From Hymenobacter volaticus (GTDB lineage: Bacteria > Bacteroidota > Bacteroidia > Cytophagales > Hymenobacteraceae): a DNA stretch of 64,000 nucleotides. The DNA is taken from NCBI RefSeq assembly GCF_022921055.1, contig NZ_CP095061.1:2767501-2831500 (forward strand). The letters are read 5' to 3'. The notes beneath the pieces were generated by a model. The model worked only from the letters and a program-made list of their open reading frames with translations, was not told the DNA's origin and ran no database searches. Position numbers and translations under genes: made by a program. Positions 21,112 to 41,860 of this stretch are shown piece by piece (the first letter of the stretch is position 1; the number at the start of each line of letters is the position of its first letter).

Positions 21112-22508
21112 TTGACCTGGACCGAAGAACAGGCCCGCGCCCTGATAACCGACTCTGGCACCCTGAAACGGGGCCTCGAACTAGCCGGCCCCGCCAAATG
21201 GAGCAACCTAGGCCAAACTGCTACCGCCGCCTGGGGCGAGTGCAAAGGCAGCGGCTCCAAGCCCTACCAAACCAGCATCGACCTAACCGAGCCCGCCTTT
21301 AAATGCTCTTGCCCGAGCCGGGTGTTTCCGTGCAAGCATGGCGCTGGCCTGCTGTTATTGCTAGCCCGCCAACCGCAGCTTTTCGGTAGTACGGTTCCAC
21401 CTTCTTGGCTGGAAGAATGGCTGGAAAAGCGCCAACAAACGCAGGAAAAGAAAACCACCAAAGCTACCCCCAAAGCCCCGGCGCCTCAGGAAGTGCCACT
21501 GGATTCGTTGGCAGCACCGGACGCGGAAGTGGCTACCGACGAAACTGCTGGCGCCAAAGCCTCGCAGGCGCTACAGAAGCGGCTGGCCCGCATGGCGCAG
21601 GGTGCGGCGGAGCTGGAAGAATGGCTGCTGGACCTAGTGCGCGCCGGTACGGCTGTGGCAAAGAGCCAGCCTCACAGCTATTGGGAAGCTCCGGCGGCTC
21701 GCCTCGTCGACAATCAGCTGCCCGGGCTGGCCAGTATCGTGCGGGAGTTGCCAGGCCTTTGCCACAGCGGCCCCGACTGGCCCGAGCGGCTGCTGGCCCG
21801 CCTCGGCGAGCTGTATCTGCTGCTGCGCGCCTTCCAGCGCCTCGACCACCAAACGCCGGACGCTCGCGAGGAAATTCTGCAGCAGGTCGGTGTCAATACC
21901 AAGAAAGAAGACCTGCTGGCTCGCCAACCCGTCGTGGTAGATGAGTGGCAGGTAGTGGGGTTGCACATCGAAGAGGAAGAGCGCCTAACGGTACGGCGCG
22001 CCTGGCTGTGGGGCCGCCACACGGGCCGCTACGCCTTGGTATTGGAATACGCATTTGGCGGCCATCGTTTTGCTACCTCTCTGGCCCCCAATGTCGTGTA
22101 TAATGGCGAATTGGTGTTCTACCCCGGGCTGCTGGCGTTGCGCGCTATTCCCGTTGTCCTCACAGTACAGAACCCCGCACCGCCCGACGTTGACCCGCCC
22201 GGCCAGAGCCTAACGCAGCTCCTCGACGAATATGCTACGGCGTTGGCCCGGCATCCGTGGCTGCGGCAGTGGCCCGCCACGTTACAAGAGGTGCTGCCTA
22301 CCTACCTCCCGCCGACGACGCGTGGGTGCTGCACCACGCCACCGACCCAACAACACTTCCGCTGCGGCTGGATGCAGAAACCGGCTGGCAACTGCTAGCG
22401 CACAGCGGTGGCCAGCCCATGAAGGTATTTGGCGAATGGAATGGCCGCACATTTCACTTGTTAACTTATTTCATTAGCGAGAAGACGGGCCAGCCGCTAG
22501 GAGCTTGA
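21112..22508 (+). pseudogene. SWIM zinc-finger protein with a single-base deletion near the 3' end
   Basis: The first gene of the MoxR-type cluster. It encodes a SWIM motif CxCx(6)CxH (Cys65, Cys67, Cys74, His76 in FKCSCPSRVFPCKHGAG from the TTG at 21112), preceded by WGECKGSGSKPYQT, which is typical of these proteins. After a linker of about 50 residues comes a helical domain and a beta-rich C-terminus. The upstream frame stays open to 20980 but overlaps the zinc-ribbon gene, so the TTG start is a judgement. The frame breaks near 22308-22313 (CTCCCGCCGACG). Adding one base joins it to ADDAWVLHHATDPTTLPLRL and on to a stop at 22506-22508, giving about 465 residues. In this family SWIM proteins accompany MoxR and VWA partners. 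Confidence 0.85.
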
Positions 22509-22535
22509 ACCTAAAGCAGAAATAATCACCGCTCT

Positions 22536-24167
22536 ATGACCACTTCTCACTCGCAGGCTTCATGGCCTCAACTGCTCCGGGTAGCGCTGTTAGGCACTCG
22601 CCAGAGTGGTGAGCCAGTGCCTGCCGTGCTAGCCACTGCCGACACCGCCACCAGCGAGGACCGCGAACAGCAAGTGCTGCTGGCCGCCGGGGCGTTGGCC
22701 CTGATGCGGCGCGCGGGCCACCAATTGCCCACAGCAACTGTAGCCACCCCCGCACCGGCCCCGCCCGACCCGCTGCCGCCGCTTGGCCCACTCGGTACGG
22801 CCTGCCTGCAACGCCTGATGGTCGATGAACTGTTTGTGGACTTGCTGCCCGACTACCTACGCCAAGTAGCGGCTGTTGGGCGCCGGGTACCCGACTCGCT
22901 CCTGGCGCACCTGTTGCGCCACGCCAAGCAGTCAGTTGAAACGGCGGCTGTGCTTGAACCAGTAGCCGGCACCCGGGGCCGTTGGCTGGCGAGCCTCAAC
23001 CCGGAGTGGAAGAGCCTGCTGGCCCCGCCTGATACCGACGCCCCTGACTTGCAGCGCTGGGAAACCGGCACCTTATCGGAGCGGCGCGCCTGGCTACGGT
23101 CCCGCTTCCGACAAGACGCCGACGCAACCCGCGCCTTGTTACTAGTCGCCTTGCCCACCGAACCAGCCAAAGCGCAAGAGGCTTTCCTGGAAATCCTGGC
23201 CGACTATCTGCACCCCGACACCGAACCCGTACTGGAAACCCTTCTTCGCGCTCGAGGCCAGGAAGTACGCCGCCAAGCCGCCGCGCTGCTAGTGCAGCTT
23301 CCCGGTGCAGCGCTAGTGGAGCGGCTTTGGGCGCGAGCCAAACCGCTGCTTGCGGTGAAGCGCGGCTTGTTGGGCCTAGGCAAAACCACGCTGGACGTTA
23401 CGCTACCGCCTACCTGGGACAAAAGCTGGCTGGCCGATGGCATCGAAGAAAAAAACGACCAATACGCCTACTATTCCGGCACTGGCAACCGGGCCACGCC
23501 ACTTGGTCCGAGCGCCATCCGGCTAGGCAATATGCTGGCGCTGCTCCCTCCTAGCCGCTGGACAACTCATTTAGGCGTTTCGGCCGAGGAGCTGCTGGCC
23601 GCTGCCTTGGCCTCGGAATGGGTGGTGCCGCTATTACCGTGCTGGGCCATCAGTACCCTCACCCACCAGGATGCCGACTTTGCGGCCGCCTTCCTGAAGC
23701 TGTGGCTGCACCAGCGGCCCACGCTACAAAAAGCCCACGCCGACCGCAACATCGATTGGGCAGCCCTCACCGAGTTGCTACCCGTGGCCACTCGACAAGA
23801 ACTGCTGCTCAAGCCTATACTGCTGCGCGTCCGGCGCCAAGAGCCCAACTGGACCGACGACCTGCTCCAACTCCCCACGCCCTGGCCCCGTGAGCTAACC
23901 ACCGAGGTCTTGCAAAGCCTGAGCGCCAAACTAACTAATTCGGCCACTCTCGAACGGTTCCACACCGACCTCTTCCAACTTAGCTACTTCATCAGCCAGC
24001 ACCTCGCCCCGGCCCTCAACCCCACCGATGCGCCCCTGGTGGAAACCACCCTGCTTGCCCTGCCCGAAGTGCACAGCACCTTCCAAAACAGCGTCCATAA
24101 CATGCTCGAAACCCTGCGCTTCCGCGTCGAACTGGCCGCTTCGCTGGCTGAGGAAGCTAGAAACTAG
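22536..24167 (+). CDS. DUF5691-like helical-repeat protein
   Basis: A 543-residue cytoplasmic protein, almost all alpha-helix and rich in Leu and Ala. WPQLLRVALLGTRQSG near the start is the signature I associate with DUF5691, and the body resembles HEAT-like helical repeats (QEAFLEILADYLHPDTEPVLETLL; QEVRRQAAALLVQLPG). It starts 27 bases after the SWIM stop and is followed 99 bases later by the MoxR ATPase. Such proteins usually act as scaffolds. Its stop codon (AAACTAG) lies inside a repeat-like stretch, 24156-24185, which shares GCTAGAAACTAGTTCCTC with the family-C element at 27131, so the extreme C-terminus may be repeat-derived. Confidence 0.8.
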   Translation: MTTSHSQASWPQLLRVALLGTRQSGEPVPAVLATADTATSEDREQQVLLAAGALALMRRAGHQLPTATVATPAPAPPDPLPPLGPLGTACLQRLMVDELFVDLLPDYLRQVAAVGRRVPDSLLAHLLRHAKQSVETAAVLEPVAGTRGRWLASLNPEWKSLLAPPDTDAPDLQRWETGTLSERRAWLRSRFRQDADATRALLLVALPTEPAKAQEAFLEILADYLHPDTEPVLETLLRARGQEVRRQAAALLVQLPGAALVERLWARAKPLLAVKRGLLGLGKTTLDVTLPPTWDKSWLADGIEEKNDQYAYYSGTGNRATPLGPSAIRLGNMLALLPPSRWTTHLGVSAEELLAAALASEWVVPLLPCWAISTLTHQDADFAAAFLKLWLHQRPTLQKAHADRNIDWAALTELLPVATRQELLLKPILLRVRRQEPNWTDDLLQLPTPWPRELTTEVLQSLSAKLTNSATLERFHTDLFQLSYFISQHLAPALNPTDAPLVETTLLALPEVHSTFQNSVHNMLETLRFRVELAASLAEEARN

Positions 24168-24266: not shown

Positions 24267-25364
24267 ATGTCCGCTACGTCAACTGAGAACCTGCTCCGCC
24301 CGCACGCCGAAGTCCTATATGCCGAAGAACTAGCCGCGCTGGCCGCTGTTGACGACCGGCCCAAGCCCACCAACTGGAAACTCTCGCCGTGGGCAGTGGT
24401 AACCTACCTGCTGGGTGGCAAGCTCGACAACGGATTTGAAATTGAGCCCAAGTACATCGGGCAGCGGCGGCTGATGGAAATTGCCGTGGCCACTCTCGCC
24501 ACCGACCGGGCCTTGCTGCTGCTCGGGGTGCCGGGCACGGCCAAAAGCTGGGTTTCCGAGCATCTGGTGGCGGCCATCAGCGGGCACTCCAACCTGCTGG
24601 TGCAAGGCACGGCGGGCACCTCTGAAGACGCCATCCGCTACTCCTGGAACTACGCCCGCCTGATTGCCGAAGGACCTTCCTTGGGCGCGTTGGTGCCCTC
24701 GCCGCTGTTCAAGGGTATGCAGGAAGGCAGCCTCGTGCGCCTCGAAGAACTTACCCGCATCCCCTCCGACGTACAGGATACGCTCATCACCATGCTCTCG
24801 GAAAAGGTGCTGCCCATCCCCGAACTCGCCACCGAGGTACAAGCCGCCCGCGGCTTCAACGTCATTGCCACCGCCAACGACCGGGACAAGGGTGTCAACG
24901 AACTGAGCAGCGCCCTCCGCCGCCGTTTCAACACCGTGGTACTCCCCCTCCCCAATGATCTAACCGAGGAAGTGCGCATCGTACAAACCCGCGTTGCCAA
25001 GCAGGGCAAAGCGTTGCAGTTGCCGGTGGAAGCACCCGCCGTCGAGCAAATCAACCGCCTCGTGACCATCTTCCGGGAGCTACGCAGCGGCGTGACCGAG
25101 AACGGCAAAACCAAGCTCAAAAGCCCAAGCGGCACCCTGAGCACCGGCGAAGCCATATCCGTGATGAACAGCGGCTTGGCCCTGGCTGCCTACTTCGGCG
25201 ACGGTAGCCTCCGCGCCCACGACTTGGCCGCCGGCCTCACCGGCGCAGTGGTGAAAGACCCTGTGCAGGACCGCACCGTCTGGCTGGAATACCTGGAAAC
25301 CGTAGTGAAAGAGCGCGACGGCTGGAAGGACTTATACCGCGCCTGCCGGGAGGTAGTGGAGTAA
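24267..25364 (+). CDS. MoxR-family AAA+ ATPase
   Basis: An ATPase of about 365 residues that should work as a hexamer with a VWA-domain partner to remodel or insert a metal into a target. Walker A is GVPGTAKS (87-94). The Walker B region LVRLEEL has Glu160-Glu161 in place of the usual Asp-Glu. Sensor 1 is ATAND near 204, and arginines follow in SSALRRRF (218-220). The ATG at 24267 is chosen over an open but unlikely extension to 24195. Its N-terminal 60 residues (LSPWAVVTYLLGGK) are typical of the MoxR branch that travels with SWIM and DUF5691 proteins. The VWA partner is not next door but at 40745. Confidence 0.9.
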   Translation: MSATSTENLLRPHAEVLYAEELAALAAVDDRPKPTNWKLSPWAVVTYLLGGKLDNGFEIEPKYIGQRRLMEIAVATLATDRALLLLGVPGTAKSWVSEHLVAAISGHSNLLVQGTAGTSEDAIRYSWNYARLIAEGPSLGALVPSPLFKGMQEGSLVRLEELTRIPSDVQDTLITMLSEKVLPIPELATEVQAARGFNVIATANDRDKGVNELSSALRRRFNTVVLPLPNDLTEEVRIVQTRVAKQGKALQLPVEAPAVEQINRLVTIFRELRSGVTENGKTKLKSPSGTLSTGEAISVMNSGLALAAYFGDGSLRAHDLAAGLTGAVVKDPVQDRTVWLEYLETVVKERDGWKDLYRACREVVE

Positions 25365-25458: not shown

Positions 25459-26100
25459 ATGCCCCAAGATTCTCTGCACCGTATCACGCAGTGGCTTGCC
25501 ACTCACGCGCCGCGTATTCTGCACGAGTCGCTGAACCCTGGTGCTACCGACGAGCAACTGGCGGCGCTAGAAGCGGCGGTGGGCAAGCCCTTGCCGGACG
25601 ACTATAAGGCCCTGTATCGGTGGCATAATGGGTTGAATGAGGAGGCCGAGAATTGGGCCAGTCTGTTCTACGGCATGAGTTTTTTGCCGCTAACTGAAGT
25701 GCTGGATGCTTACCTCTACCAAGCGCCGCAAACCCTAACCTCTCCCTTACTACAGGCGGCACCCACCCTGAAAAGCGCAGTAATGCAGAACCCGTACTGG
25801 CTGCGGCTCGGTTTCGATGGTTCGCATGGCTGGCTACTCGTTGATCTTGACCCAACGGAAACCGGCAGTTATGGGCAGGTGCTGTACGTGTACGAACTAG
25901 ATGAAATCGGCTTTCGAGTGGCCAGCTCGATAACGGAGCTTTTAGGCACTTTCGCCCACGACCTAGAACGCGGCTTGTATACCCTCGACGAAGGGGCAGC
26001 CGACGACGGCAACGAGTTTCTGGTGCCAGCTGCGCATATTGACCCCGGCAATTACAACCAGCCCGGCCGCTGGCAACAAGATCTTTCCCAAACCCCGTAA
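25459..26100 (+). CDS. SMI1/KNR4 (SUKH-1) family protein
   Basis: A 213-residue acidic cytoplasmic protein. The N-terminal pattern ATDEQLAALEAAVGKPLPDDYKALYRWHNG is the SMI1/KNR4 signature, and the later FDGSHGWLLVDLDPTETGSYGQVLYVY fits the rest of the domain. Bacterial members often serve as immunity proteins against polymorphic toxins, although some are housekeeping. It follows the MoxR gene by 94 bases and precedes the next small gene by 8, so it looks embedded in the operon. No toxin gene is nearby. Confidence 0.88.
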   Translation: MPQDSLHRITQWLATHAPRILHESLNPGATDEQLAALEAAVGKPLPDDYKALYRWHNGLNEEAENWASLFYGMSFLPLTEVLDAYLYQAPQTLTSPLLQAAPTLKSAVMQNPYWLRLGFDGSHGWLLVDLDPTETGSYGQVLYVYELDEIGFRVASSITELLGTFAHDLERGLYTLDEGAADDGNEFLVPAAHIDPGNYNQPGRWQQDLSQTP

Positions 26101-26108
26101 CCTTCGCC

Positions 26109-26591
26109 ATGCTGACGCATTCTTTTTGGGGAACTGTAGAAGAAAGTTGGGCGGGCCTCTGCGCCGAACACCCGGTTTCGGTACCTGGCTTCCAGAAACA
26201 AGTTGAAGTTTTCTTGGGCGACGAACTCTTCGAGGAAGACGAAGAGTACGACCTTACGCCCACGCAACTCGACGAATACGCCGCTACCTTCCAGGATTTT
26301 GTGTCCGATGCTCCGCGCGTGCTAACCCAACTAAAGCAGCGTGCTTTCGAGCAGTACCAGGAGCTCTACGCTGCTCACTACGACGACCCCGCTCAGTCGG
26401 GCGCGCCACCCCTGTACCTAACCACCGCCGACCAGCACTTCGCCTACATGCAGAACATAGGCTACTTGCGTATTTCGGATGGCAATGCGCTCCGCCTCAT
26501 CATCCACTACGACCTAGATACGGAGCACGGCCTAGAGGTCTTGTTCGTGAACAACGAGTTGGCTGCCATGGGCGGCATTGCGGAAACTTAA
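26109..26591 (+). CDS. Small acidic protein of unknown family, immunity-like
   Basis: A 160-residue very acidic protein (FLGDELFEEDEEYDLTPTQLDEYAATFQDF). It starts 8 bases after the SMI1/KNR4 stop, so the pair is almost surely co-transcribed. The C-terminal strands GYLRISDGNALRLIIHYDLDTEHGLEVLFVN recall several small immunity families. DUF6985 is a possible name that I cannot confirm. It has no signal, membrane helix or catalytic motif. The coupling with an SMI1/KNR4 protein supports an immunity or sensing role by inference only. Confidence 0.7.
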   Translation: MLTHSFWGTVEESWAGLCAEHPVSVPGFQKQVEVFLGDELFEEDEEYDLTPTQLDEYAATFQDFVSDAPRVLTQLKQRAFEQYQELYAAHYDDPAQSGAPPLYLTTADQHFAYMQNIGYLRISDGNALRLIIHYDLDTEHGLEVLFVNNELAAMGGIAET

Positions 26592-26648: not shown

Positions 26649-29018
26649 ATGCCCACGCCCGACCTTCGCCTCTTCGGTATTCGCCACCACGGTCCTGGCA
26701 GCGCCGCCAGCCTGCGCCACGCCCTCGACGAGTTCCAGCCCGACATCGTGCTGCTGGAATGCCCCGCCGATGGCGAAGCGGCCGTGCAAACCATCATTCA
26801 GCACCCCGACCTGCGGATGCCGGTGGCGCTGCTGCTCTACAACCCCAAGCAGTACCAGCAGGCTTCGTTTTTGCCTTTTGCCACATTCTCGCCCGAAACG
26901 CAGGTGCTCCGCTACTGCCACGAGCACGGCGCCCACCTGCGCTGCATGGACTTACCGGCCGCGTTGCGGTTTGCCCTCCCCGATGCCGTGGAAAGCGTGC
27001 CGGCGGGGACCTCACCCCCTAGCCCCCTCTCCCCAGGAGAGGAGGAACTAGACATAAATTCTAGCTCTAGCTTAGGAGTAACAGAGCATGCAACGACACC
27101 AGCCGTTAATGAACTAGAGCTAGAAGCAAAGCTAGAAACTAGTTCCTCCTCTCCTGAGGAGAGGGGGCTAGGGGGTGAGGTCCGCCGCGACCCTATCTCC
27201 TACCTCGCCGAGTTGGATGGCTACCAGGACGGGGAACGGTGGTGGGAGCTGCGCTTCGAGCACAATGCCGGCCACGCCGATACGTTTGGGGCGGTGCTGA
27301 ACATGATGACAGCCTTGCGGGAGGGACTGGCTTTACCAGAAAGCCCGGAAACTCTGCTCCGCGAAGCCTTCATGCGCGAGACCCTGCGCAATACCCTCAA
27401 ACAGGGCTACCAGCGCGTGGCGGTGGTCTGCGGAGCCTGGCACGCGCCCGTGCTGCATCCTGATCTGCTGAAGCGCGAAGACAAAGCTCTGCTCAAAGGC
27501 CTGAAGAAAGTACCTATTGAAGCCACCTGGATTCCATGGACTTACGAGCGGCTGTCGTATAGCTCCGGCTACGGGGCGGGCGTGTTGTCGCCGGCCTGGT
27601 ACGAGTTGCTATTCACCGAGCCGCATACCGAAGTAGTGACGCATTGGATGGTGCGGGCGGCGCGGCTGCTGCGCGGGCAAGATATGGATGCGTCGTCGGC
27701 GCATGCTATTGAGGGCGTGCGGCTGGCCGAAACGCTGGCCGCCGTGCGGGGCCGGGCACTACCGGGTATCGAGGAGTTGCAGGAAGCCGCCGTGGCTATT
27801 TTAGGTGGCGGCTACGAGGAAGCCCTAAGCTTAGTACACCGCGAACTAGTGATTGGGGTGTGCATGGGCGAAGTGCCCGCCGAGCTGCCCGCCACGCCCT
27901 TGCAGCAGGACCTCACGCAGCAGCAGCGCCTCACCCGCCTCAAGCCCGAAGCCGCCGCCCGCACCCTCGACCTAGATTTGCGCAAAGAATTGGATTTGAG
28001 CCGCAGCCACTTGTTGCACCGCCTGCGGCTGCTGGATGTGCCGTGGGGCCAGCCGCGCCGCGCGCAAGGCAAAGCCGGCACCTTCCATGAGTTATGGGAG
28101 CTGCAATGGCAACCCGATTACGCCTTGCACGTGCTCGACGCCGGTCGGTGGGGCAACACCATTCTCGATGCCGCCGTGGGCCGCGCCCGCCAGCGCGCCA
28201 CTGAAGCCCCCGACCTGGAAACCGTCAGCAAGCTGCTGGAAGAGGCCCTGCAAGCCGACCTTGGTCCCGCCATAGCCGCCCTGGTAGCCCGCCTAGAAAC
28301 CCTCTCAGCCGGCACCCGCGACGTAACTCATTTGCTAGCCGCCCTGCCTCCCCTGGTAAATGTGCTGCGCTATGGCAACGTGCGCCGCACCGAAACTGCC
28401 CAAGTAGCGCAGGTGGTACACCACTTGGTGCCGCGCCTCTGCATCGGGCTGCCCCAAGCTGGCACCGGCCTCGACTACGACGCGGCCCGCCAGCTCTTGC
28501 CCCGCATCGAAGGCACGCACCAAGCCATCCGGCTGCTCCAAGATTCTGCGCAGGAAGAAGACTGGTACGGGGCGCTGGCCGTGGTATTGCGCAACCCCGC
28601 CAGTTCGGGTTTACTAGCCGGAGCCGCCGGGCGCCTGCTATTTGATGCCCAACAGCTTTCTTCGGAAGATGCCGGCACTGCCCTTGGCCTGGCCCTGGCT
28701 CCCGCGCAGCCCACCGCCTACGCCACCGCCTGGATTGAGGGCTTTCTGAGCGGCAGCGGCCAACTTTTGCTTCACCATCGTCCCCTCTTTGCCTTGCTCG
28801 ATCAGTGGCTAGGGGAGCTGAACGAAGACACCTTCCGCGAAATCGTGCCCCTGCTGCGCCGCGCTTTCACCGATTTTAGCACCCCGGAGCGCCGCCAGTT
28901 GCTGGAGTTGGCCGTGCAAGGTGGCCAGCCGGCTGCGGTGCTAGCTGTAGCGGAAGATTTCGACCTGGAACGGGGACAACGGGTGTTGCCGATGCTGCGG
29001 GAACTGCTAGGGTTTTAG
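26649..29018 (+). CDS. DUF5682-like protein carrying an in-frame repeat insertion
   Basis: A 789-residue cytoplasmic protein. The start LRLFGIRHHGPGSAASLRHAL, then DIVLLECPADGEA, matches DUF5682, which I would place near the TraB/ChaN/EreA-like hydrolase fold by its His-containing first strand. A middle region has WWELRFEHN and ETLRNTLKQGYQRVAVVCGAWHAPVL, and a long helical C-terminal half follows. Residues about 119-178 are encoded by a 177-bp palindromic repeat and read as low-complexity Ser/Glu/Pro (GTSPPSPLSPGEEELD... SSSSPEERGLGGEV). The insert keeps the frame and sits in a linker before DPISYLAELDGYQD. It is the last gene of the contiguous MoxR cluster. Confidence 0.85.
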   Translation: MPTPDLRLFGIRHHGPGSAASLRHALDEFQPDIVLLECPADGEAAVQTIIQHPDLRMPVALLLYNPKQYQQASFLPFATFSPETQVLRYCHEHGAHLRCMDLPAALRFALPDAVESVPAGTSPPSPLSPGEEELDINSSSSLGVTEHATTPAVNELELEAKLETSSSSPEERGLGGEVRRDPISYLAELDGYQDGERWWELRFEHNAGHADTFGAVLNMMTALREGLALPESPETLLREAFMRETLRNTLKQGYQRVAVVCGAWHAPVLHPDLLKREDKALLKGLKKVPIEATWIPWTYERLSYSSGYGAGVLSPAWYELLFTEPHTEVVTHWMVRAARLLRGQDMDASSAHAIEGVRLAETLAAVRGRALPGIEELQEAAVAILGGGYEEALSLVHRELVIGVCMGEVPAELPATPLQQDLTQQQRLTRLKPEAAARTLDLDLRKELDLSRSHLLHRLRLLDVPWGQPRRAQGKAGTFHELWELQWQPDYALHVLDAGRWGNTILDAAVGRARQRATEAPDLETVSKLLEEALQADLGPAIAALVARLETLSAGTRDVTHLLAALPPLVNVLRYGNVRRTETAQVAQVVHHLVPRLCIGLPQAGTGLDYDAARQLLPRIEGTHQAIRLLQDSAQEEDWYGALAVVLRNPASSGLLAGAAGRLLFDAQQLSSEDAGTALGLALAPAQPTAYATAWIEGFLSGSGQLLLHHRPLFALLDQWLGELNEDTFREIVPLLRRAFTDFSTPERRQLLELAVQGGQPAAVLAVAEDFDLERGQRVLPMLRELLGF
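27007..27183. repeat. Family-C palindromic element inside the DUF5682 gene
   Basis: Two 44-base arms (27007-27050 and 27140-27183, arm core CTCACCCCCTAGCCCCCTCT) are inverted with a single mismatch. Inner 10-base arms CTAGCTCTAG (27061) and CTAGAGCTAG (27114) extend the palindrome. The total of 177 bases is 59 codons, so the host frame is kept and no stop is introduced in that frame. Confidence 0.9.
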
Positions 29019-29236
29019 CCTTCTGGCAACGTTCTATGCTCTATACTTCACTTAGAGGTGTATTTGACCCGCCCAACTTTCTACTGCTCATTCACTACTT
29101 TTTGCTTGTTGCCCGCCCCCGAAAAAATCTAGATGAGCCGCAATATTTAGGCACTTGAATAGTTAACTACCTACTACCCGGCACGCTCCGGCTACTATCG
29201 ACTTCCTCTTATTCTTCATACTATTTATTGAGAGCT

Positions 29237-30427: not shown

Positions 30428-30490
30428 TAGCCCGGGCTAGCTGGTTGAGGCAGGGCAGTGGGAAGGGAAAGCCACTTTTTCAACTGATCC

Positions 30491-33274: not shown

Positions 33275-33330
33275 GACCAGAAAAACTAGTTTCCCTCCTT
33301 ATCTGAGGCAGAAAACTAGTTTTCTGGTCT
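33275..33330. repeat. Short palindromic repeat of the CTAG-arm type
   Basis: Imperfect inverted arms (ACCAGAAAAACTAGTTT and AAAACTAGTTTTCTGGT) flank CCTCCTTATCTGAGG. The inner sequence resembles the outer arms of the composite repeats at 11322 and 38791. It lies between the M1 peptidase gene and the divergent pxpB operon. Confidence 0.6.
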
Positions 33331-33372
33331 TTCTAGCTTTCTTAGCTGACACGTTCAACTTTAGCTTACTCA

Positions 33373-34116
33373 ATGTCCCTTTCGACTGGCAGCCTCTTAG
33401 TTGAAAATCCGGTGCAGCTTTACCCGCTCGGCGATTCAGCGGTTGTTTTGCAGTTCGGCGAGGGTATAAACCAAGCCACCCACCGCGCCATCCAGGCCGT
33501 AGGCGCTTATTTAGAGGAGCATCCGTTTCCGGGCTTTACGGAATACGTGCCGGCCTTCACCACCCTCACCGTGTATTACGACCCTTGGCGGGCCAGCAAA
33601 GCCGGCCACCTTGACCCGTACGCGGAAGTAGTACGCCACTTGCAGAAGCTATTGCGCGCAGTGCCGGCCCCCACTGACGTGGCCGCTTCTGTGGTAGTAG
33701 AAATACCAGTGTGCTACTGCGGCCGTTTCGGACCCGATTTGGCGTGGCTGGCCGACCATATAGGCCTGACGCCCGCGCAAGTTGTTGCCTTGCACACCGA
33801 ACCGGAGTACTTGGTGTACATGATAGGGTTTGCGCCGGGCTTCCCGTATTTGGGAGGCATGAAAGAGTTACTGGCAGCCCCGCGCAAAGACCAACCCCGG
33901 GCTCTGGTGCCGGCTGGTTCGGTAGGTATTGCGGGCAAACAAACCGGCATCTACTCCCTGCCCACGCCAGGCGGTTGGCAACTGATTGGCCGAACGCCCC
34001 GGCGCCTGTTCGCGCCCGAGGCGGCATCGCCGAGTTTGCTGCGGGCGGGGCAAAAGCTAAGGTTTGTGTCCATCACCGAAGACGAATACCAACACCTGCA
34101 AGAGCATGAGTCTTAA
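33373..34116 (+). CDS. pxpB: 5-oxoprolinase subunit PxpB (KipI-like)
   Basis: One of the three subunits of the ATP-dependent enzyme that opens 5-oxoproline (pyroglutamate) to glutamate. The 247 residues match the KipI/PxpB family: YPLGDSAVVLQFG at the start, PAFTTLTVYYDP, IGFAPGFPYLGGM in the cyclophilin-like domain, and PAGSVGIAGKQTGIYSLPTPGGWQLIGRTP. It is complete and intact. Its last 11 bases overlap the start of pxpC, and the operon continues through pxpA to a transporter gene. In B. subtilis the order of the equivalent genes differs but the partners are the same. Confidence 0.95.
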   Translation: MSLSTGSLLVENPVQLYPLGDSAVVLQFGEGINQATHRAIQAVGAYLEEHPFPGFTEYVPAFTTLTVYYDPWRASKAGHLDPYAEVVRHLQKLLRAVPAPTDVAASVVVEIPVCYCGRFGPDLAWLADHIGLTPAQVVALHTEPEYLVYMIGFAPGFPYLGGMKELLAAPRKDQPRALVPAGSVGIAGKQTGIYSLPTPGGWQLIGRTPRRLFAPEAASPSLLRAGQKLRFVSITEDEYQHLQEHES

Positions 34117-35115
34117 GGTTATTCGTCCGGGTATGCTGACCACTATTCAGGATGCGGGCCGATTCGGCTACCGGCAAGCCGGTGTCATTGTGAGCGGGCC
34201 GATGGATGCGCTGGCGCTACGCGAAGCCAACCTGCTGGTCGGCAATCCGGAGCAGTTGGCCGGATTGGAAATCACCCTCAGCGGGCCTACTATTCAGTTT
34301 GAAGCCGACCACCTGATAGCGCTGACCGGGGCCGACCTCTCGCCTACACTCAACGGCCAGCCTATGCCGCTGCGGCGGCCTGTGGCTGTAATTCGCGGCT
34401 GCGAATTAGCTTTTGGCGCGGCCCGGACGGGCTGCCGAACCTACCTGGCGGTAGCGGGCGGATTGGCGGTTCCGGAAGTGCTTGGCAGCCGGGCTACGTA
34501 CTTGCGAGCGGGCATTGGGGATTGCACGGCCGCGCCTTACAAGCCAAAGACGTAGTGCCCGCCACTGGCCCTACTGAACTCGGCCGCCAAGTACACCAAC
34601 GTCTCATTGCCCACCATCCCGACCGGCCGTGGGTGGCGGCAACCTGGAGTATCGCGCCGGCAGGGCGGGCCTCTCCTACCGGCGTGGCAACTGTTCGCGC
34701 CGTTCGGGGGCCGGAGTATGACTGGTTTACGGCGGCTAGTCAACAGGATTTCTGGACGCAGCAATTCACCGTAACGCCAAGCTCCGACCGGATGGGCTAC
34801 CGACTCCAGGGGCCGGAATTGCGGCGCCATACCCACCAGGAAATGTTGTCGACGGCCGTTACTTTCGGCACGGTACAGGTACCAGCTGGTGGTCTTCCCA
34901 TTATCTTGATGGCCGACCACCAAACCACCGGTGGCTACCCGCGCCTGGCGCAGGTGATTTCAACTGACTTTTCCTTGCTCGCCCAACTGCCCCTGGGTGG
35001 TAAGTTTCGGTTTCAGGAAGTGTCGCTGGCGGAAGCCCACCGCGCCTACCTGCACCAAGAACGCACCTTTCATCAACTCGCCCGAGCCATCCAGCTCACT
35101 GCCCGCCACCAATGA
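34106..35115 (+). pseudogene. pxpC: 5-oxoprolinase subunit PxpC (KipA-like), interrupted by a single-base deletion
   Basis: The biotin-dependent-carboxylase-like subunit. It begins MSLKVIRPGMLTTIQDAGRFGYRQ, a very conserved start, and reads to GSRATYLRAGIG. The frame then shifts at a GGGG run (34517-34520), giving a false stop at 34555. With one more G it continues as GLHGRALQAKDVV to the end at 35113-35115, for 336 residues. The second half contains RVRPGPEYDWF-like (read here VRGPEYDWFTAASQQ), SDRMGYRLQGP and the GGYPRLAQVI segment of the family. Its stop overlaps the pxpA start (ATGA). The neighbouring pxpA has the same kind of fault. Confidence 0.92.
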
Positions 35116-35893
35116 CCCAACCGTACTCCGTCGATTTGAACTGCGACATGGGGGAAAGCTTCGGCGCCTACTCCTTGGGCCACGACGAAGCCATTCTCCC
35201 CTTCGTCACGTCTGCCAACATTGCCTGCGGCTTCCATGCCGCTGACCCCGCCATCATGAAGCGCACCGTCCGCTTGGCTTTGCAGCACCACGTCGCCATT
35301 GGCGCCCACCCCGGCCTCCCCGACTTGGTAGGCTTTGGGCGGCGCGAAATGGCCGTTTCGGCGGAAGAGGCGTACGATATGACCGTCTACCAGATTGGGG
35401 CGTTGCAGGCCTTTGTGCGGGCTGAGGGGGCACGCTGCACCACGTAAAGCCGCATGGCGCGCTTTACAACATGGCAGCCGTAAACCCCGCCCTAGCCGAA
35501 GCCATTGCCGAAGCCGTGTACCGCGTGCATCCCCAAGCCTGCCTCTACGGGCTGGCCGGCAGCGCCCTGATTAGCGCCGGCCAGAAGCTCGGCCTGACCA
35601 CCGCCCACGAGGTTTTCGCCGACCGTACCTACCAACCCAACGGCACCCTCACCCCTCGCCGCCAACCCGATGCGCTGATTACCGACGCCAGCGCGGCCAT
35701 CAACCAAGTGGTGCGCATGGTGAAAGAAGGCCACGTACGGGCCCTGTCGGGCGAAGACGTAGCCATTCAGGCCGATACGGTGTGCATCCACGGCGACGGC
35801 GCGCACGCCCTAGCGTTTGCCCAACAGATTCGAGTTCGGTTGCAAGCGGAAACCATTAGCGTGCAGGCCGGCCTGCGGAACGCCACCGCATGA
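35112..35893 (+). pseudogene. pxpA: 5-oxoprolinase subunit PxpA (LamB/YcsF family), interrupted by a single-base deletion
   Basis: PxpA carries the metal-independent deacetylase-like domain of the oxoprolinase. It opens with [20 protein letters not shown] and [17 protein letters not shown], the classic LamB/YcsF start, then [18 protein letters not shown]. The frame fails near 35434 (CACGCTGCAC) and stops at 35447. With one C restored it reads [21 protein letters not shown] and continues in the frame of 35471-35893, ending [12 protein letters not shown] at 260 residues, a normal length. The stop overlaps the transporter start by ATGA, so the four genes are translationally coupled. Confidence 0.93.
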
Positions 35894-37080
35894 AGCCAGC
35901 CCGCAATTGGGGGGTGCTAGCAGGTGCCGCCTTCCTGATGGCCACTTCAGCGGTCGGCCCCGGTTTCCTCACCCAAACCACCGTCTTCACCGAATCGTTG
36001 GGGGCCAGCTTCGGCTTCGTCATTCTGACTTCCATTATCATCGATATCGGGGTGCAGCTCACCATCTGGCGGGTTATTGCCGTGTCGGAAATGCGGGCCC
36101 CCGACATTGCCAACCGGGTGCTGCCGGGCCTTGGTGGCTTTATTTCTGCGCTCATTGTGCTCGGTGGGCTTGCCTTCAACATCGGCAACGTGGGCGGCGC
36201 GGGCCTCGGGTTGCAGGTACTGACGGGCCTGCCGGTTTCGCTTTGCGCGGTGCTGGCCGCAGCCATGTCCGTGGCTATTTTCTTGGTGCGCGAGGCGGGG
36301 CCGGTCATGGACCGGTTTGCCCAACTCATGGGGCTCGTGATGATTCTCATTATCATTTACGTAGCCGTCACGACGGGCCCGCCGGTGGCCGAAGCCGCCC
36401 TGCGCACCGTGGTTCCTACCCGCATTGATTTCACGTCCATCGTCACGCTGGTCGGTGGCACGGTAGGCGGCTACATCACCTTTTCCGGTGGTCACCGCCT
36501 CCTCGACGCAGGCATCAAAGGACCAGATGCCCTGCCCCACGTGACGCAAAGCGCCATCATGGGTGTATCGGTGGCTTCCCTAATTCGGGTGTTCCTGTTC
36601 TTGGCCACGCTCGGGGTAGTGAGCCGCGGCCTTGCTATTGATGCCAGCAATCCGCCGGCTTCGGTGTTTCAGCTGGCGGCCGGACAGGTAGGCTACAAGT
36701 TGTTTGGCGTGGTGATGTTTGCCGCGGCCATTACGTCCATCATCGGCTCGGCTTACACCTCTATTTCTTTCTTGAAGTCCCTACTGCCAAGCGTAGCCGC
36801 CCACGAAAACCGCTTTATTATCGCCTTTATCGTGGTGTCGACGCTGGCCTTCGTGACCATCGGTAAGCCGGTGAGTTTGCTGGTGTGGGCCGGAGCGCTA
36901 AACGGATTCATCCTGCCGATTACGCTTGCAACCCTGCTCATAGCAGCCTACCGCCGCGACGTAGTTGGCACCTATCGGCACCCGCTGTGGCTGGCCGTGT
37001 TTGGGCTGGCAGTTGTGCTCATCATGACAGGCATGAGCGGTACCGTGCTGGTGGAGCAGGTATCGGCGCTGTTTAAGTGA
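35890..37080 (+). CDS. NRAMP-fold membrane transporter of the oxoprolinase operon (YcsG-like)
   Basis: An inner-membrane protein of 396 residues with about 11 hydrophobic helices and the overall NRAMP look. The canonical metal-binding motif DPGN of helix 1 is replaced: the segment reads [17 protein letters not shown], with Gly and Phe where Asp and Asn would be. The Met-Pro-His motif of helix 6 is also absent ([16 protein letters not shown]). Metal transport is therefore doubtful. Its start overlaps the pxpA stop, and a similar gene (ycsG) accompanies the equivalent genes in B. subtilis, so import of 5-oxoproline or a related acid is a reasonable inference. It is complete and undamaged. Confidence 0.88.
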
Positions 37081-37169
37081 GAAATAACAACACTTAATTA
37101 GCCCATTTGACTGAGCCGAGTGTACTAAAGTTTACACCTCTCAGGTACCGACCTTGCCAAAGTATATCT

Positions 37170-37266
37170 GTCATGCTGAGCGGAGCCGAAGCATCTCGCG
37201 TGCTGATGTTGCTTTAGTAAGGAGTTTACTACACTAGCGAGATGCTTCGGCTGCGCTCAGCATGAC
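37170..37266. repeat. Family-A palindromic repeat (copy 2)
   Basis: Arms at 37170-37199 and 37237-37266 share CATGCTGAGCGxAGCCGAAG with copy 1 at 11394 and are inverted with one mismatch. The spacer of 37 bases differs. It lies between the NRAMP-fold gene and the amidohydrolase gene and is not flanked by the outer arms seen at copies 1 and 3. Confidence 0.85.
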
Positions 37267-37344
37267 GTTCTAAAATGCTTATGGTTGATAAGAGCGTTTC
37301 CAACCGAGTTTTGCCTTTTTTGCTGACATTCTTTACCGCCTGCT

Positions 37345-38781
37345 ATGAAACTTGTCTACCGCTTACTTGCTTCTACTCTCCCGTTGCTAGCCGCAGGTTA
37401 TGCCAGCCGACAGCCCGCACAAGCTTCGTACGACCTCGTCATTACGCACGCCAACGTGGTAGACGTGGAAACCGGCCGGGTTTTGCCCGACCAAACCATC
37501 GCTGTCAGCAACGGTCTGATTCAACAGCTAAGCAAGTCGACTATTGCTCCGCTGGCCGCCAAACAAACCCTGGATGCGCGCGGCAAATACCTGATTCCGG
37601 GCTTGTGGGACATGCACGTGCACTTCCGGGGCGGCGACTCGCTCATTACCGCCAACCGCAACCTGCTGCCCCTCTACCTCGCCCACGGCATCACAACGGT
37701 GCGCGACGCCGGCGGCGACCTAACACCGGCGGTTTTCTCTTGGCGCCAGCAAATTCAGGCCGGACAATTGGCCGGACCGACCATCTACACCTCCGGCCCC
37801 AAGATAGATGGCCCGAAGGCGTTTTGGGCCGGTTCGTTGGAAGTCGAGACGCCCGCGCAAATTGAAAAGGCCCTGGATTCGTTGCAAGCCTTGAAGGTGG
37901 ATTACGTGAAGCTCTACGAAAGCACCATCTCCCGCGACGCCTTCCTGAACACCATTATCGCTGCCCAAAAACGGGGCATGACCACCACCGGCCACATGCC
38001 CTACACCGCTACGTTGCGCGAAGCTTCCGAACGGGGCCTCGATGCGTCGGAGCACCTCTACTACGTGTTTAAAGGCTGCTCGGCCAAGGAAGACAGCATC
38101 ACCAAGGCCGTTGAAAACAGCCTCAGCACACCCAAGCCGCTCGGTTTGTTTGCCGTGTTGCCCGCCATCTACCGCACCTACGACCCCACTACAGCCACCC
38201 GCCTCTACCGTACGTTGGTAGCCAACAAAACCGCCGTCGTGCCCACGCTCTACATCCAGAAGCTGCTGGCCGAACTCCCCGAAACCGACCACTCCCGCGA
38301 TACGCTGCTCGCCTATATCGACCCCAAGATTCAGGCCACCTACGCCCGCCGCTTGGCCGGTGCCCGGGCGCAATCCGCCGCAACTCGCGCCTTCAATAAG
38401 CAGCTCGGCGCCAAGTTCACGACCCTAGTACCAGCCATACAAAAAGCCGGGGTGACCCTGCTAGCCGGCTCCGACAGCGGCGCGTCCAACTCCTACGTGT
38501 ACCCCGGCACCTCCCTACTCGGCGAGTTAGAGTTGATGGTACAAGCCGGCCTCACGCCAACGCAGGCACTACAAGCCGCTACCATCAACGGCGCGCGTTT
38601 CCTGAAAGCCGACAAACGTTCCGGCACCATCCAGAAAGGCAAAGATGCCGACTTGGTACTCCTAGACCAGAATCCGCTAGCAAACATCACCAACCTGCGC
38701 AAAATCAACACGGTAATCACGCGCGGCAAGGTGTACAGCGCCGCCGACCTTCGGCAAATGATGAAGGCCGTAAAACACTAA
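37345..38781 (+). CDS. Exported amidohydrolase-superfamily metalloenzyme
   Basis: A binuclear metal hydrolase of the imidazolonepropionase/prolidase-like branch, 478 residues. The N-terminus MKLVYRLLASTLPLLAAGYA looks like a signal peptide, so action in the periplasm is likely. The metal ligands are visible in order: HVH in GLWDMHVHFRGGD, the carbamylated Lys in DYVKLYES, His in TTTGHMPY, His in DASEHLYYV, and Asp in LLAGSDSGASN. The C-terminal beta segment GTIQKGKDADLVLLDQNPL is standard. Substrate could be a peptide, an imidazolone or a lactone. It lies between two family-A repeats and has no close operon partner. Confidence 0.88.
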   Translation: MKLVYRLLASTLPLLAAGYASRQPAQASYDLVITHANVVDVETGRVLPDQTIAVSNGLIQQLSKSTIAPLAAKQTLDARGKYLIPGLWDMHVHFRGGDSLITANRNLLPLYLAHGITTVRDAGGDLTPAVFSWRQQIQAGQLAGPTIYTSGPKIDGPKAFWAGSLEVETPAQIEKALDSLQALKVDYVKLYESTISRDAFLNTIIAAQKRGMTTTGHMPYTATLREASERGLDASEHLYYVFKGCSAKEDSITKAVENSLSTPKPLGLFAVLPAIYRTYDPTTATRLYRTLVANKTAVVPTLYIQKLLAELPETDHSRDTLLAYIDPKIQATYARRLAGARAQSAATRAFNKQLGAKFTTLVPAIQKAGVTLLAGSDSGASNSYVYPGTSLLGELELMVQAGLTPTQALQAATINGARFLKADKRSGTIQKGKDADLVLLDQNPLANITNLRKINTVITRGKVYSAADLRQMMKAVKH

Positions 38782-38790
38782 TTTAATAGG

Positions 38791-39016
38791 GCTAATCCTC
38801 AGATGAGGAGGGGTTAGGGATGGTTGACCACGCATTGTTTACTTCGACCGTCATGCTGAGCTTGTCGAAGCATCTCGCGTGCTGACGTTGCAATGCTAAC
38901 TCAACGATTCAGGCAAGATGCTTCGGCAAGCTCAGCATGACGGTCTAGGTAGATTAGGAAAAGAAACTGCTCCTAAGCCTTCCTTATCTGATGCAGGAAC
39001 CTAGATTTTAACTCTC
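38791..39016. repeat. Composite palindromic repeat: outer arms around family-A copy 3
   Basis: The inner inverted repeat is 38846-38945 (arms extend GACCGTCATGCTGAGC with GCTCAGCATGACGGTC). The core GTCGAAG differs from copies 1 and 2. Outer imperfect arms lie near 38791-38820 (ATCCTCAGATGAGGAGGGG) and 38972-39016 (CTTCCTTATCTGATGCAGG). The layout mirrors the element ahead of dprA and ends about 20 bases before the next gene. Confidence 0.8.
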
Positions 39017-39034
39017 CTTTAGAAGAAAGCTCCT

Positions 39035-39574
39035 ATGCCTATTCGTGATATCCTCCAGCTTGGCCACCCTGTTTTGCGCCAGATAGCCCAACCCGTGCCG
39101 GACCCCACGGCGCCGACCGTGGCTGCCCTCGTAACGGACCTGACCGATACAGTAGCCCACTGGCGCGAAACCACCGGCTATGGCCGCGCTATTGCGGCCC
39201 CGCAGATCGGGGAATTGCAGCGGGTGGTTCTGCTACGCTTGCCGGGCCAGCCAGTGTGGCCGTTCATCAACCCGAGCATAGTGGCCTACAGCCCCGAGAA
39301 GACGGTAGTATGGGATGCCTGCTTGTCTTTTCTGTCCATTTTCATGCAAGTGGAGCGCTACGAATGGATTATGGTGCGCTACCAGGATCTTGCGGGCCAG
39401 TGGCACGAAACCTACGCCGGGCGCGAAGACGACCTCGCCGAACTACTCCAACACGAAATCGACCATCTTGACGGTATCCTCTCCATCGACCGAATAGTGG
39501 ACATAAAAACCCTCTGCTCCCGCGAGGAATTCGAGCGCCAATACCGCGCCGACAGCCCGTACGGAAGGTCCTAG
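39035..39574 (+). CDS. Peptide deformylase-like protein with an altered second motif
   Basis: A 179-residue protein of the deformylase family, which removes the formyl group from new proteins. Motif 1 GYGRAIAAPQIG and motif 3 QHEIDHLDG are intact, so two zinc or iron histidines and the catalytic Glu are present. Motif 2, normally EGCLS, reads DACLS, keeping the metal Cys but changing the two residues before it. The N-terminus IRDILQLGHPVLRQIAQPV is typical. Because of the altered motif and the short C-terminus this is probably an accessory, type-III-like deformylase rather than the main Def. It may also not deformylate at all. Confidence 0.88.
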   Translation: MPIRDILQLGHPVLRQIAQPVPDPTAPTVAALVTDLTDTVAHWRETTGYGRAIAAPQIGELQRVVLLRLPGQPVWPFINPSIVAYSPEKTVVWDACLSFLSIFMQVERYEWIMVRYQDLAGQWHETYAGREDDLAELLQHEIDHLDGILSIDRIVDIKTLCSREEFERQYRADSPYGRS

Positions 39575-39757: not shown

Positions 39758-40120
39758 ATGGCAAATAGTTACGCTCCTTTCGTTGTCTACGATTTACAGG
39801 AAAACGCAACCCCTGAGCGCAAGTACCGCATCGTGGTGGATTTGTCGGAGATGGACGACTACTACAACGTGTTTGAGAAGCATGGGTACAGCGGCAGCGG
39901 CGCCTCCTGGGCCGAGCACATCGAAACCATCCTGGAAGAACACGCTCCCGAACTGCTAGACCACGTGGAGCTAGCCGGCGAAGGCGAAATATTCCGCGCA
40001 TACACGGATAGCCGCAGTTCCGCCGAGCAGTTCCTACGCCTGCTCCACCCCATCTTCGGCGACCTCGACAGCCTCAACAAGTACCTCAGCCAAACCGACC
40101 CCGGCGACTTTTTCGAGTAA
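39758..40120 (+). CDS. Imm51-family immunity-like protein (copy 1)
   Basis: A 120-residue acidic cytoplasmic protein, started at the ATG at 39758 rather than an upstream TTG. The block YYNVFEKHGYSGSGASWAEHIETILEEHAPELLDHVEL followed by EQFLRLLHPIFGDLDSLNKYL matches the Imm51 pattern known from polymorphic toxin loci. No toxin gene is adjacent. It begins an apparent operon with the CbrC-like gene (35 bases later) and the VWA gene. A second member with the same landmarks lies at 62849-63340. Confidence 0.8.
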   Translation: MANSYAPFVVYDLQENATPERKYRIVVDLSEMDDYYNVFEKHGYSGSGASWAEHIETILEEHAPELLDHVELAGEGEIFRAYTDSRSSAEQFLRLLHPIFGDLDSLNKYLSQTDPGDFFE

Positions 40121-40155: not shown

Positions 40156-40710
40156 ATGGTCACCCCGACTACGCCGCCGCAATTTGTCTTCAACCCCAAT
40201 GCGTACCAGGTAGGCCTTTTCGAGCAACAGGATATTGTGTGCGAATGCTGCCAGCAACCACGGGCGTACAACTATGCCGGGCCGATATACTGCGTGGCTA
40301 ATGTCGAGGAGTTATGTCCCTGGTGCATTGCGGATGGCTCGGCAGCGCGAAAATGGGACGCAGAATTTCAGGATTGGGCTTCTATTGAGGGACACGACCC
40401 GAACCCACAAGGCACCCCACCCGCAGCTATCAATCCGGCTTCGTTGGAAGAAGTATTATTTCGCTCACCGGCCTACAACTCCTGGCAGCAAGGCGTATGG
40501 CTGACGCATTGCCAGGATATGTGCGTGTTTCTCGGCTATGTAGGCGGCAACAACATTCGTCCCCTGCTCGATGAATTGCGTCCGGACTTAGAAGCGTGGC
40601 CTGATGAAGACTTTCTGTTGCGTAATCTGTCGGCCGATGGTAGCCTGACCGGCTATCTGTTTCAGTGCCGCCATTGTGGCCAGCATCGGCTGCATATCGA
40701 CTGTGATTAA
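40156..40710 (+). CDS. CbrC-family (UPF0167) protein
   Basis: A 184-residue cytoplasmic protein. FVFNPNAYQVGLFEQQ, then VCECCQQPRAYNYAGPIYC and LCPWCIADGSAARKWDAEFQD, is the CbrC pattern. The CECC, CPWC and CRHC groups look like zinc ligands. In E. coli CbrC overproduction gives tolerance to colicin E2, though the molecular role is not known. It sits between an Imm51-like gene and the VWA gene, each spaced about 35 bases, so all three are likely one transcript. Confidence 0.88.
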   Translation: MVTPTTPPQFVFNPNAYQVGLFEQQDIVCECCQQPRAYNYAGPIYCVANVEELCPWCIADGSAARKWDAEFQDWASIEGHDPNPQGTPPAAINPASLEEVLFRSPAYNSWQQGVWLTHCQDMCVFLGYVGGNNIRPLLDELRPDLEAWPDEDFLLRNLSADGSLTGYLFQCRHCGQHRLHIDCD

Positions 40711-40744
40711 GTAGCTTCCGCCTTTCAATTATCTGCTCCTTGTT

Positions 40745-41860
40745 ATGCCCGAATCTGCTGCTGCCCGCTGGAAACTGGTGCTCGGTTCCGCTGCCGACGC
40801 CAACAATCAAACGCCTTTCTCGCCCGACTACCAGGGCATGGACCAAGTGCTTACTGCTCTCTACGACGAACAAGATGGCAAAGAGCGCAAAGCGGGCCTC
40901 GGCGGTTCGGCTCCGCGCGTGAGCCGCTGGCTCGGCGACATTCGCACCTACTTCCCCTCCGACGTGGTAGCCGTGATGCAGCGCGACGCCATGGACCGCC
41001 TTGGCTTGCAGCAACTCCTGATGGAGCCCGAAATCTTGCGCACCGTGCAGGCTGACGTGCAATTGGTGGGCACGCTGCTATCGTTGAGCCGCGTGATGCC
41101 GCAGAAAGTGAAGCACACGGCCCGCGAAGTGGTGCGCAAAGTGGTGCAAGAGCTAGAACAAAAACTTTCCAACCCACTGCGGCAAGCCGTGCAGGGCGCC
41201 CTGAGCCGGGCCGTGCGCAATCCGCGCCCCCGCTACCGCGAAATAGATTGGGGCGCCACGATTCGGGTGAACCTAAAGCACTACCAGCCGGCGCAGCGCA
41301 CCATTATCCCGGAGCGGTTGGTGGGGTTCGGGCGGCGCGGGCAGGCACTCAAGGAAATTGTGCTGTGCGTAGACCAAAGCGGCTCGATGGCTTCGTCGGT
41401 GGTGTATACGGGCGTTTTTGGGGCGGTGCTGGCCTCCATCAAGGCGGTGAAAACGCACATGGTTGTGTTTGATACGGCTGTGGTCAACCTCAGTGAAAAC
41501 CTGCAAGATCCCGTGGATTTGCTGTTTGGCGTGCAGCTCGGCGGCGGCACCGATATCAACTTGGCCCTCACGTATTGCCAGCAGCTTATCACCCGCCCCA
41601 CCGATACCATTTTGGTTCTCGTTAGCGACCTGTACGAAGGCGGCAACGAGGCCGCCATGATCAAGCGGGCAGCAGCCCTCAAAGCCGCGGGCGTCACGGT
41701 AGTGGCCCTGCTCGCCCTCTCCGACGAAGGCGCCCCGAGCTTCGACCGACGCGTAGCCGAAAAGCTCGCCACTTTCGATATTCCTAGCTTTGCCTGCACC
41801 CCGGCGCAGTTTCCAGAACTGATGGCCGCCGCCATTCAAGGCCGGGAGCTGAAGGTGTAG
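40745..41860 (+). CDS. VWA-domain protein, probable partner of the MoxR ATPase
   Basis: A 371-residue cytoplasmic protein. The N-terminal 200 residues are helical (AREVVRKVVQELEQKL), and a von Willebrand A domain starts near residue 200. Its metal-ion-dependent adhesion site is complete: VDQSGSM (Asp210, Ser212, Ser214), the Thr in LGGGTDI, and the Asp in LVSDLYEGG. The helical-head plus C-terminal VWA order matches the VWA proteins that pair with MoxR ATPases of the SWIM/DUF5691 type. Here it lies 15 kb from the MoxR gene. The pairing is inferred from family habit, not from position. Confidence 0.88.
   Translation: MPESAAARWKLVLGSAADANNQTPFSPDYQGMDQVLTALYDEQDGKERKAGLGGSAPRVSRWLGDIRTYFPSDVVAVMQRDAMDRLGLQQLLMEPEILRTVQADVQLVGTLLSLSRVMPQKVKHTAREVVRKVVQELEQKLSNPLRQAVQGALSRAVRNPRPRYREIDWGATIRVNLKHYQPAQRTIIPERLVGFGRRGQALKEIVLCVDQSGSMASSVVYTGVFGAVLASIKAVKTHMVVFDTAVVNLSENLQDPVDLLFGVQLGGGTDINLALTYCQQLITRPTDTILVLVSDLYEGGNEAAMIKRAAALKAAGVTVVALLALSDEGAPSFDRRVAEKLATFDIPSFACTPAQFPELMAAAIQGRELKV

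Follow-up and report, generated by a model that had tools for sequence, protein, structure and literature searches.

Why should the genes for a MoxR ATPase and for a VWA protein of one system lie more than 15 kb apart, with immunity-like genes beside both of them? This question is raised by a stretch of 64,000 nucleotides from Hymenobacter volaticus (NCBI RefSeq assembly GCF_022921055.1, contig NZ_CP095061.1, positions 2,767,501 to 2,831,500 of the forward strand; hereafter the window), which belongs to a genome of 7.1 Mb in 10 contigs. An earlier note on the window had described a MoxR-SWIM-DUF5691-DUF5682-VWA system in two parts, and had called two of its features unusual: an SMI1/KNR4 gene and a small acidic gene inside the first part, and Imm51-like and CbrC-like genes ahead of the VWA gene. 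Comparison with related loci showed that the split of the window is an extreme of an opening that occurs throughout the genus at two fixed junctions, and that DUF5691 varies most among the five core parts of the operon. The core operon is of a known kind; what is new is the two open junctions and the apparent replacement of DUF5691.

Two open junctions in the Hymenobacter operon

All five core genes are present on the forward strand of the window, where the note had placed them. Four stand in a row: the SWIM zinc-finger gene (21112..22508), the gene for a helical DUF5691 protein (22536..24167; PF18944, 3.9e-102), the gene for a MoxR AAA+ ATPase of the YehL type (24267..25364; PF07728 (AAA_5), 1.2e-34; Walker A motif GVPGTAKS), and the DUF5682 gene (26649..29018; PF18934, 3e-238). 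The gene for a CoxE-type VWA protein (40745..41860; PF05762 (VWA_CoxE), 1.6e-48) starts 15.4 kb after the end of the MoxR gene at 25364, the gap from DUF5682 being 11.7 kb. Its product of 371 amino acids, in which the only Pfam domains found were of the VWA type, has an intact metal ion-dependent adhesion site (MIDAS; DQSGS from residue 210, GGGTD, and VSD). The strong profile matches bore out the assignment of DUF5691 and DUF5682, and only SWIM, alone among the genes named here, fell below its Pfam cut-off (17.1 bits, cut-off 19.6); 45 of 47 related open reading frames checked nevertheless carry the zinc motif C-[ST]-CPSR-x-x-PCKH. PF05762 has a single match in the genome sequence examined, the VWA gene of the window itself, which excludes a second CoxE-VWA cluster as an explanation of this gene.

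A genome scan for DUF5682 gave at least 522 confirmed loci, the best 80 of which were kept: 24 in Hymenobacter and 56 elsewhere (among the matches listed: Saprospiraceae, Chitinophagaceae, Cyanobacteria, Acidobacteria, Proteobacteria, an Anaerolineae metagenome-assembled genome, and others). All five genes were found by profile in 24 of these 56 loci, and all 24 had the order SWIM, DUF5691, MoxR, DUF5682, VWA on one strand. The genes of the window, the split-off VWA gene included, make up one system, as the note had proposed. Measured between stop-to-stop frames, MoxR and DUF5682 were no more than 245 bp apart in 23 of the 24, and DUF5682 and VWA no more than 40 bp, again in 23; the exception to this tight packing was the Anaerolineae locus (L133; locus numbers are ours). 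Many of the remaining 32 loci lie on short contigs.

We compared this arrangement with 33 Hymenobacter loci, namely the window, the 24 loci above and 8 further ones, after removal of duplicates. These loci were chosen for DUF5682 and are silent on genomes without it; a separate count found DUF5682 in 19 of 59 genomes examined. The nearest relatives of the DUF5682 protein of the window come from Hymenobacter, with 94% identity in Hymenobacter sp. BT186. The junction between MoxR and DUF5682 (slot A) measured 667-5229 bp in all 32 Hymenobacter loci with MoxR in view. The junction between DUF5682 and VWA (slot B) measured 70-13726 bp in the 27 loci where it could be measured, and 1500 bp or less in 21 of them. 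The distances from SWIM to DUF5691 (141-364 bp) and from DUF5691 to MoxR (32-550 bp) were short in 31 of 31 loci each. Within the range of slot B across the genus, the 11.7 kb of the window ranks close to the maximum, and its split is not unique. Thus both features that the note had called unusual are present, but neither is special to this genome.

The genes that separate the two parts in the window (29228..39574, between DUF5682 and the Imm51-family gene) are ordinary: PorV, an M1 peptidase on the opposite strand, pxpB, pxpC, pxpA, an Nramp-type transporter, an amidohydrolase, and peptide deformylase. An M1 peptidase gene stands between DUF5682 and VWA, or the end of the stretch, in 10 of the 33 Hymenobacter loci, being also found in slot B of G018, L085, L086, L088, L091-L093, L103, and L106. 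Upstream of SWIM is a gene for a small protein with C-terminal Cys pairs, zinc ribbon-like (20705..21055, forward strand), which is kept in part of the genus; every Pfam zinc-ribbon match of this protein was under the cut-off. The SWIM gene of the window changes frame near 22.3 kb, its first part running to 22398 and its 3' part, 22257-22508, lying in another frame, whereas in its nearest relatives, L103 and L086, SWIM is one open frame of 502 amino acids. The pxpA gene (35112-35893) is likewise split across two frames in the window, with both matching pieces in one frame in the relative G018, and pxpC is seemingly shortened at its start. The broken SWIM frame and the split pxpA give a hint of assembly indels.

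Divergence and apparent replacement of DUF5691

The five core proteins of the Hymenobacter loci differ widely in mean pairwise identity, scored on the best aligned pieces: 89% for MoxR, 85% for VWA, about 75% for DUF5682, 64% for SWIM, and 48% for DUF5691. DUF5691 similarity barely tracks that of DUF5682 (Spearman coefficient 0.19, versus 0.87 for MoxR). Among 39 pairs of loci of the Chitinophaga, Niastella and Desulfovibrionaceae types, DUF5691 was again lowest, with 43% identity, followed by SWIM (63%), DUF5682 (67%), VWA (82%), and MoxR (89%). Quick trees were built for each component. One clade, named from the DUF5682 tree, reappears in the trees of MoxR and VWA, with support of 81 and 84, but is rejected by the DUF5691 tree, with a log-likelihood difference of 334 and a p-value of 9.8e-43 in the approximately unbiased test.

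The loci L099 and L102 illustrate how this divergence may have come about. Their proteins are 93% (DUF5682), 99% (MoxR) and 88% (SWIM) identical, but the DUF5691 proteins are only 42% identical. At the DNA level, SWIM is mostly 80-95% identical, DUF5691 about 45-70%, and the stretch from MoxR onward about 96%, with sharp edges; the contrast pair L099 and L104 has about 75-90% DNA identity over most of DUF5691. The sharp-edged change looks like replacement of a cassette between near-identical operons rather than drift. Species seem to exchange DUF5691 as a whole, a hint of an arms race.

In 17 rows, or 13 loci without duplicates, a single open frame of about 1000-1070 residues spans both SWIM and DUF5691 (L094, L096, L098-L102, L104, L105, L107, L127, L063, and L068). 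This single frame supports a physical association of SWIM and DUF5691.

Cargo of the two junctions

Profile searches identified the four immunity-like or small genes that the note had proposed, all on the forward strand. Slot A of the window holds a SUKH-1 (SMI1/KNR4) immunity-like gene (25459..26100; PF09346, 4.2e-18; PADLOC family PDC-M40A) and a gene for a small acidic DUF6985 protein (26109..26591; PF22481, 1.2e-8). In slot B, an Imm51-family gene (39758..40120; PF15595, 2.9e-11) is followed, immediately before the VWA gene, by one for a CbrC-like UPF0167 protein (40156..40710; PF03691, 1.9e-50), which stays under the cut-off of NF040891 (172 of 300 bits). A second Imm51-family gene is located near the end of the window (62849-63340), between genes for an AraC-type regulator and a helicase-like protein.

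Across the genus, slot A held an identified family in 28 of the 32 loci, with 27 different contents among the 32; the families searched were drawn from 17 of the loci, so that cargo of other families was missed. SUKH was found in 10 loci and a second type of SUKH in 8; DUF6985 and two unassigned families, which we call c2 and c5, were found in 7 loci each; DUF6414, restriction endonuclease-like domains of the MTES_1575 and AHJR types, and RusA occur in single loci, and there are also an oxidoreductase-like gene, judged by eye, and genes without family assignment. The cargo of slot A runs along the operon in 66 of 73 matches, the other 7 being all of family c3. We observed c3, likewise unassigned, on the opposite strand at L065:9873-10346 and in L063, L081, L101, and L127, in tandem in two of the loci.

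The recurring cargo is placed at this locus beyond chance. CbrC/UPF0167 has three copies in 17 genomes, and all three are immediately before the VWA gene. Imm51 occurs in 15 of the 17 genomes, and at least one copy is at this locus in 13 of these 15, while 7 of 20 rows lie elsewhere. Among the 33 Hymenobacter loci, 24 have Imm51, in slot B in 17 and ahead of SWIM in 7, and the identified gene that most closely precedes VWA is Imm51 or CbrC in 17 of 21. For SUKH, 11 of 59 rows are at this locus versus about 0.2 expected (some 0.34 Mb of 99.7 Mb), the 11 rows stemming from 5 genomes and including neighbouring genes. Family c2 has 5 of its 9 copies in slot A and another about 3 kb past the VWA gene. 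The immunity-like genes are truly associated with the system, as the note had supposed. A YhcG-type PDDEXK nuclease gene (DUF1016), the only YhcG found, occupies at L064:5908-6939 the place in slot B that Imm51 or CbrC takes in other loci.

We counted the changes of each family on the quick DUF5682 tree, gain and loss being indistinguishable in such counts. Four cargo families and CbrC changed as many times as there are loci with them (c2, 7; c9, 5; c6, 4; c13, 4; CbrC, 5), as expected of repeated gain or loss, whereas SUKH needed only 5 changes with 10 loci and Imm51 of slot B only 5 with 17 loci. Mean identity was 59% for Imm51 and 60-64% for SUKH, c2, and CbrC. Imm51 similarity tracks that of the core moderately (Spearman coefficient 0.54, versus 0.05 for c2). 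Imm51 has a stable place, and its sequence is without special conservation.

Relatives and possible role of the system

The relation to E. coli, which was absent from the earlier note, gives the operon a family. In E. coli K-12, yehL (MoxR), yehM, yehP (VWA), and yehQ (SWIM, by annotation) are consecutive. The MoxR protein of the window is 42% identical to YehL over 361 columns (8e-84), the VWA protein 34% identical to YehP over 364 columns (6e-74), and the DUF5682 protein 25% identical to YehM (6e-16). BLASTP of the SWIM protein, which has the SWIM motif, gave no match of note with YehQ. Judged from these alignments, the system is of the yehL-yehM-yehP(-yehQ) kind plus DUF5691. Profile searches of the E. 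coli stretch matched neither DUF5691 nor SWIM_a; the order there is MoxR, DUF5682, VWA, SWIM, and no cargo lies between the four genes; the window, with 11.7 kb between DUF5682 and VWA, lacks this contiguity. PMC3893208 divides MoxR proteins into seven subfamilies, one of them named for YehL.

Other MoxR-VWA systems are more distant. RavA and ViaA are likewise an AAA+ MoxR protein with a VWA partner, but the match of the window MoxR to RavA covers only 25 residues at Walker A (E 0.028) and that of the window VWA to ViaA 151 columns at 22% identity (E 0.003), so that homology was not seen at full length; by BLASTP the MoxR protein is nearer YehL than RavA. NorQ and NorD also pair a MoxR ATPase with a MIDAS-bearing VWA protein, and the window MoxR does match the solved structure of NorQ (4.6e-7), although midasin is the nearer solved relative (1.6e-17); the window VWA had no solved-structure match at E 0.01. 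The ternary conflict systems of Kaur et al. 2020 (PMC7159879), with VMAP, iSTAND, FtsH, and beta-propeller proteins, are similar in joining MoxR and VWA with further components and variable parts. A VWA protein fused to variable effector domains would be expected of such a system, whereas only VWA-type domains were found in the window VWA, and the window MoxR stays under the bpMoxR cut-off (25.5 of 27 bits), a profile of the beta-propeller subtype only. The word SWIM is absent from the available text of that paper. The literature searched, which excludes most subscription journals, yielded no mention of DUF5682 or DUF5691 and no description of this operon with SWIM beside MoxR or VWA. The note's statement that sets with these extra domains have been described from genome mining could therefore not be confirmed there.

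The DUF5682 protein is predicted to have an alpha/beta N-terminal domain and a helical C-terminal part (AlphaFold2 pLDDT 84.1, pTM 0.79). Its motifs had raised the idea that it belongs to the TIKI/TraB/EreA hydrolase superfamily, and our comparisons gave no confirmation: hhalign probabilities were 0.2% for the TraB/GumN profile and 0.1% for the erythromycin esterase profile, and at most 0.2% with the cropped core, and the whole-model structure comparison covered mainly residues 456-760, not the N-terminal domain. Within the gene, in a stretch that encodes a disordered linker, we observed a 23-bp inverted pair (27010-27180) with one further near-match in the genome; some relatives have similar linker residues. 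Eight of the loci outside Hymenobacter (L115, L121, L122, L126, L129, L138, L156, and L163) show none of the four partners by profile within about 10 kb on each side of DUF5682, suggesting that the protein may also function alone.

What could such a machine do? For MoxR-VWA pairs, two papers (PMC7159879, PMC13036017) propose that the VWA domain uses its MIDAS to capture the client, with the ATPase ring passing on a conformational change. By analogy, we infer that MoxR would be the ATP-driven ring and motor here and the VWA protein the clamp, whose MIDAS would bind the client. SWIM and DUF5691 may form the arm that recognizes and brings the client, DUF5682 may be a conserved scaffold or enzyme of the complex, and the SUKH, DUF6985, Imm51, CbrC, and nuclease-like cargo, presumably co-expressed with the machine, could add or present targets. 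The variable DUF5691 half of the arm suggests that the clients change, as in conflicts, and DUF5691 would then change fast and be replaced as they do. The neighbourhood points the same way: CbrC is reported to make E. coli less vulnerable to colicin E2 by protecting it (PMC3599342), Imm51 has been linked with the toxins Tox-RES and Tox-URI1 and is present in polyimmunity loci (PMC3482391), and orphan SUKH proteins of recombinase-associated interbacterial defence (rAID) arrays protect Bacteroidales against a type VI secretion effector (PMC12247911), suggesting interbacterial or counter-invader conflict. We tentatively favour, with some reserve, the reading that the locus encodes the form taken in Hymenobacter by a widespread five-gene MoxR-VWA remodelling machine. 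This machine would probably defend the cell against protein toxins of foreign origin or against mobile elements, capturing and remodelling one of their proteins, with DUF5691 as the variable recognition part. The toxin-guarding role, as in the earlier note, is one that we infer. A narrower proposal, which we regard as unlikely, is that DUF5691 is an exchangeable specificity cassette between a near-unchanged SWIM and MoxR, swapped like the specificity subunits of restriction systems, and that Imm51 and CbrC are dedicated partners on the VWA side, not free immunity proteins.

Several observations weigh against a defence machine with changing recognition. No phenotype for any member of the operon was found in the literature searched, and we know of none. 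PADLOC at E 0.01 matched the SUKH protein alone, as a candidate family, and none of the core proteins. Slot A has no query family in 4 of the 32 loci (L085, L098, L102, and L106), and part of the cargo is simply inherited, with one change for c3 (5 loci) and 3 for the second SUKH type (8 loci). The SWIM tree also mildly rejects the DUF5682-derived clade (p 0.012), the pair L099 and L102 was chosen once the trees had been seen, and the broken SWIM frame leaves open that the window copy could be damaged. Because DUF5691 is the fastest part in every group compared, part of its divergence may reflect weak constraint.

This last point belongs to a somewhat unlikely alternative, in which the operon encodes a housekeeping machine that matures a conserved complex, like NorQD or CoxDE, with DUF5691 a weakly constrained helical linker and the loosened operon tolerating insertions. 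The MoxR-VWA pairs of known role mature proteins, according to PMC13036017 and PMC7159879, MoxR and VWA are strongly conserved, slot B took up ordinary metabolic genes too, and DUF5691 evolves fast in the other groups as well. Neutral insertion, however, leaves unexplained why all three CbrC genes of 17 genomes, and Imm51 in 13 of 15 genomes, are here, why 66 of 73 cargo matches in slot A are on the operon strand, and why DUF5691 changes with sharp edges. The cargo could instead be an array of orphan immunity genes against neighbours' toxins, parked here for good expression like the rAID arrays of Bacteroidales, with the AAA+ machine uninvolved. The genes are short and mostly co-oriented and include SUKH and Imm51 families, in line with the protection by orphan SUKH proteins and the toxin ties and polyimmunity loci of Imm51 cited above (PMC12247911, PMC3482391), and the mean identities of Imm51, SUKH, CbrC, and c2 fall close together (59-64%), as expected of cargo. 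A tyrosine recombinase would be expected in the cluster of a rAID array, whereas the 18 matches to PF00589 in this genome include none in the window, and the genes here lie inside a conserved AAA+ operon. Slot A is not all immunity-like either, holding nuclease-like, oxidoreductase-like and unassigned genes, and Imm51 or CbrC stands last before VWA in 17 of 21 loci, although Imm51 is upstream of SWIM in 7 others; we consider a parked array quite unlikely. It is very improbable that ordinary homologous recombination around a hot spot produced both the DUF5691 divergence and the cargo as side effects, neither of them being under selection. What the locus holds does turn over, but in L099 and L102 the flanking SWIM (88%) and MoxR (99%) were not exchanged along with DUF5691.

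If the cassette proposal is true, the operon would encode a machine directed against toxins or invaders, and a single swapped gene, together with changing adaptors, would determine its targets. The yehLMPQ genes and their relatives are spread over several phyla, and no known role was found for them. In Hymenobacter, a near-frozen motor beside one core subunit and two slots that turn over shows which part possibly faces a changing partner, and this pattern of turnover makes the function testable in this genus. CbrC and Imm51, in turn, gain a concrete candidate partner in the adjoining VWA protein.

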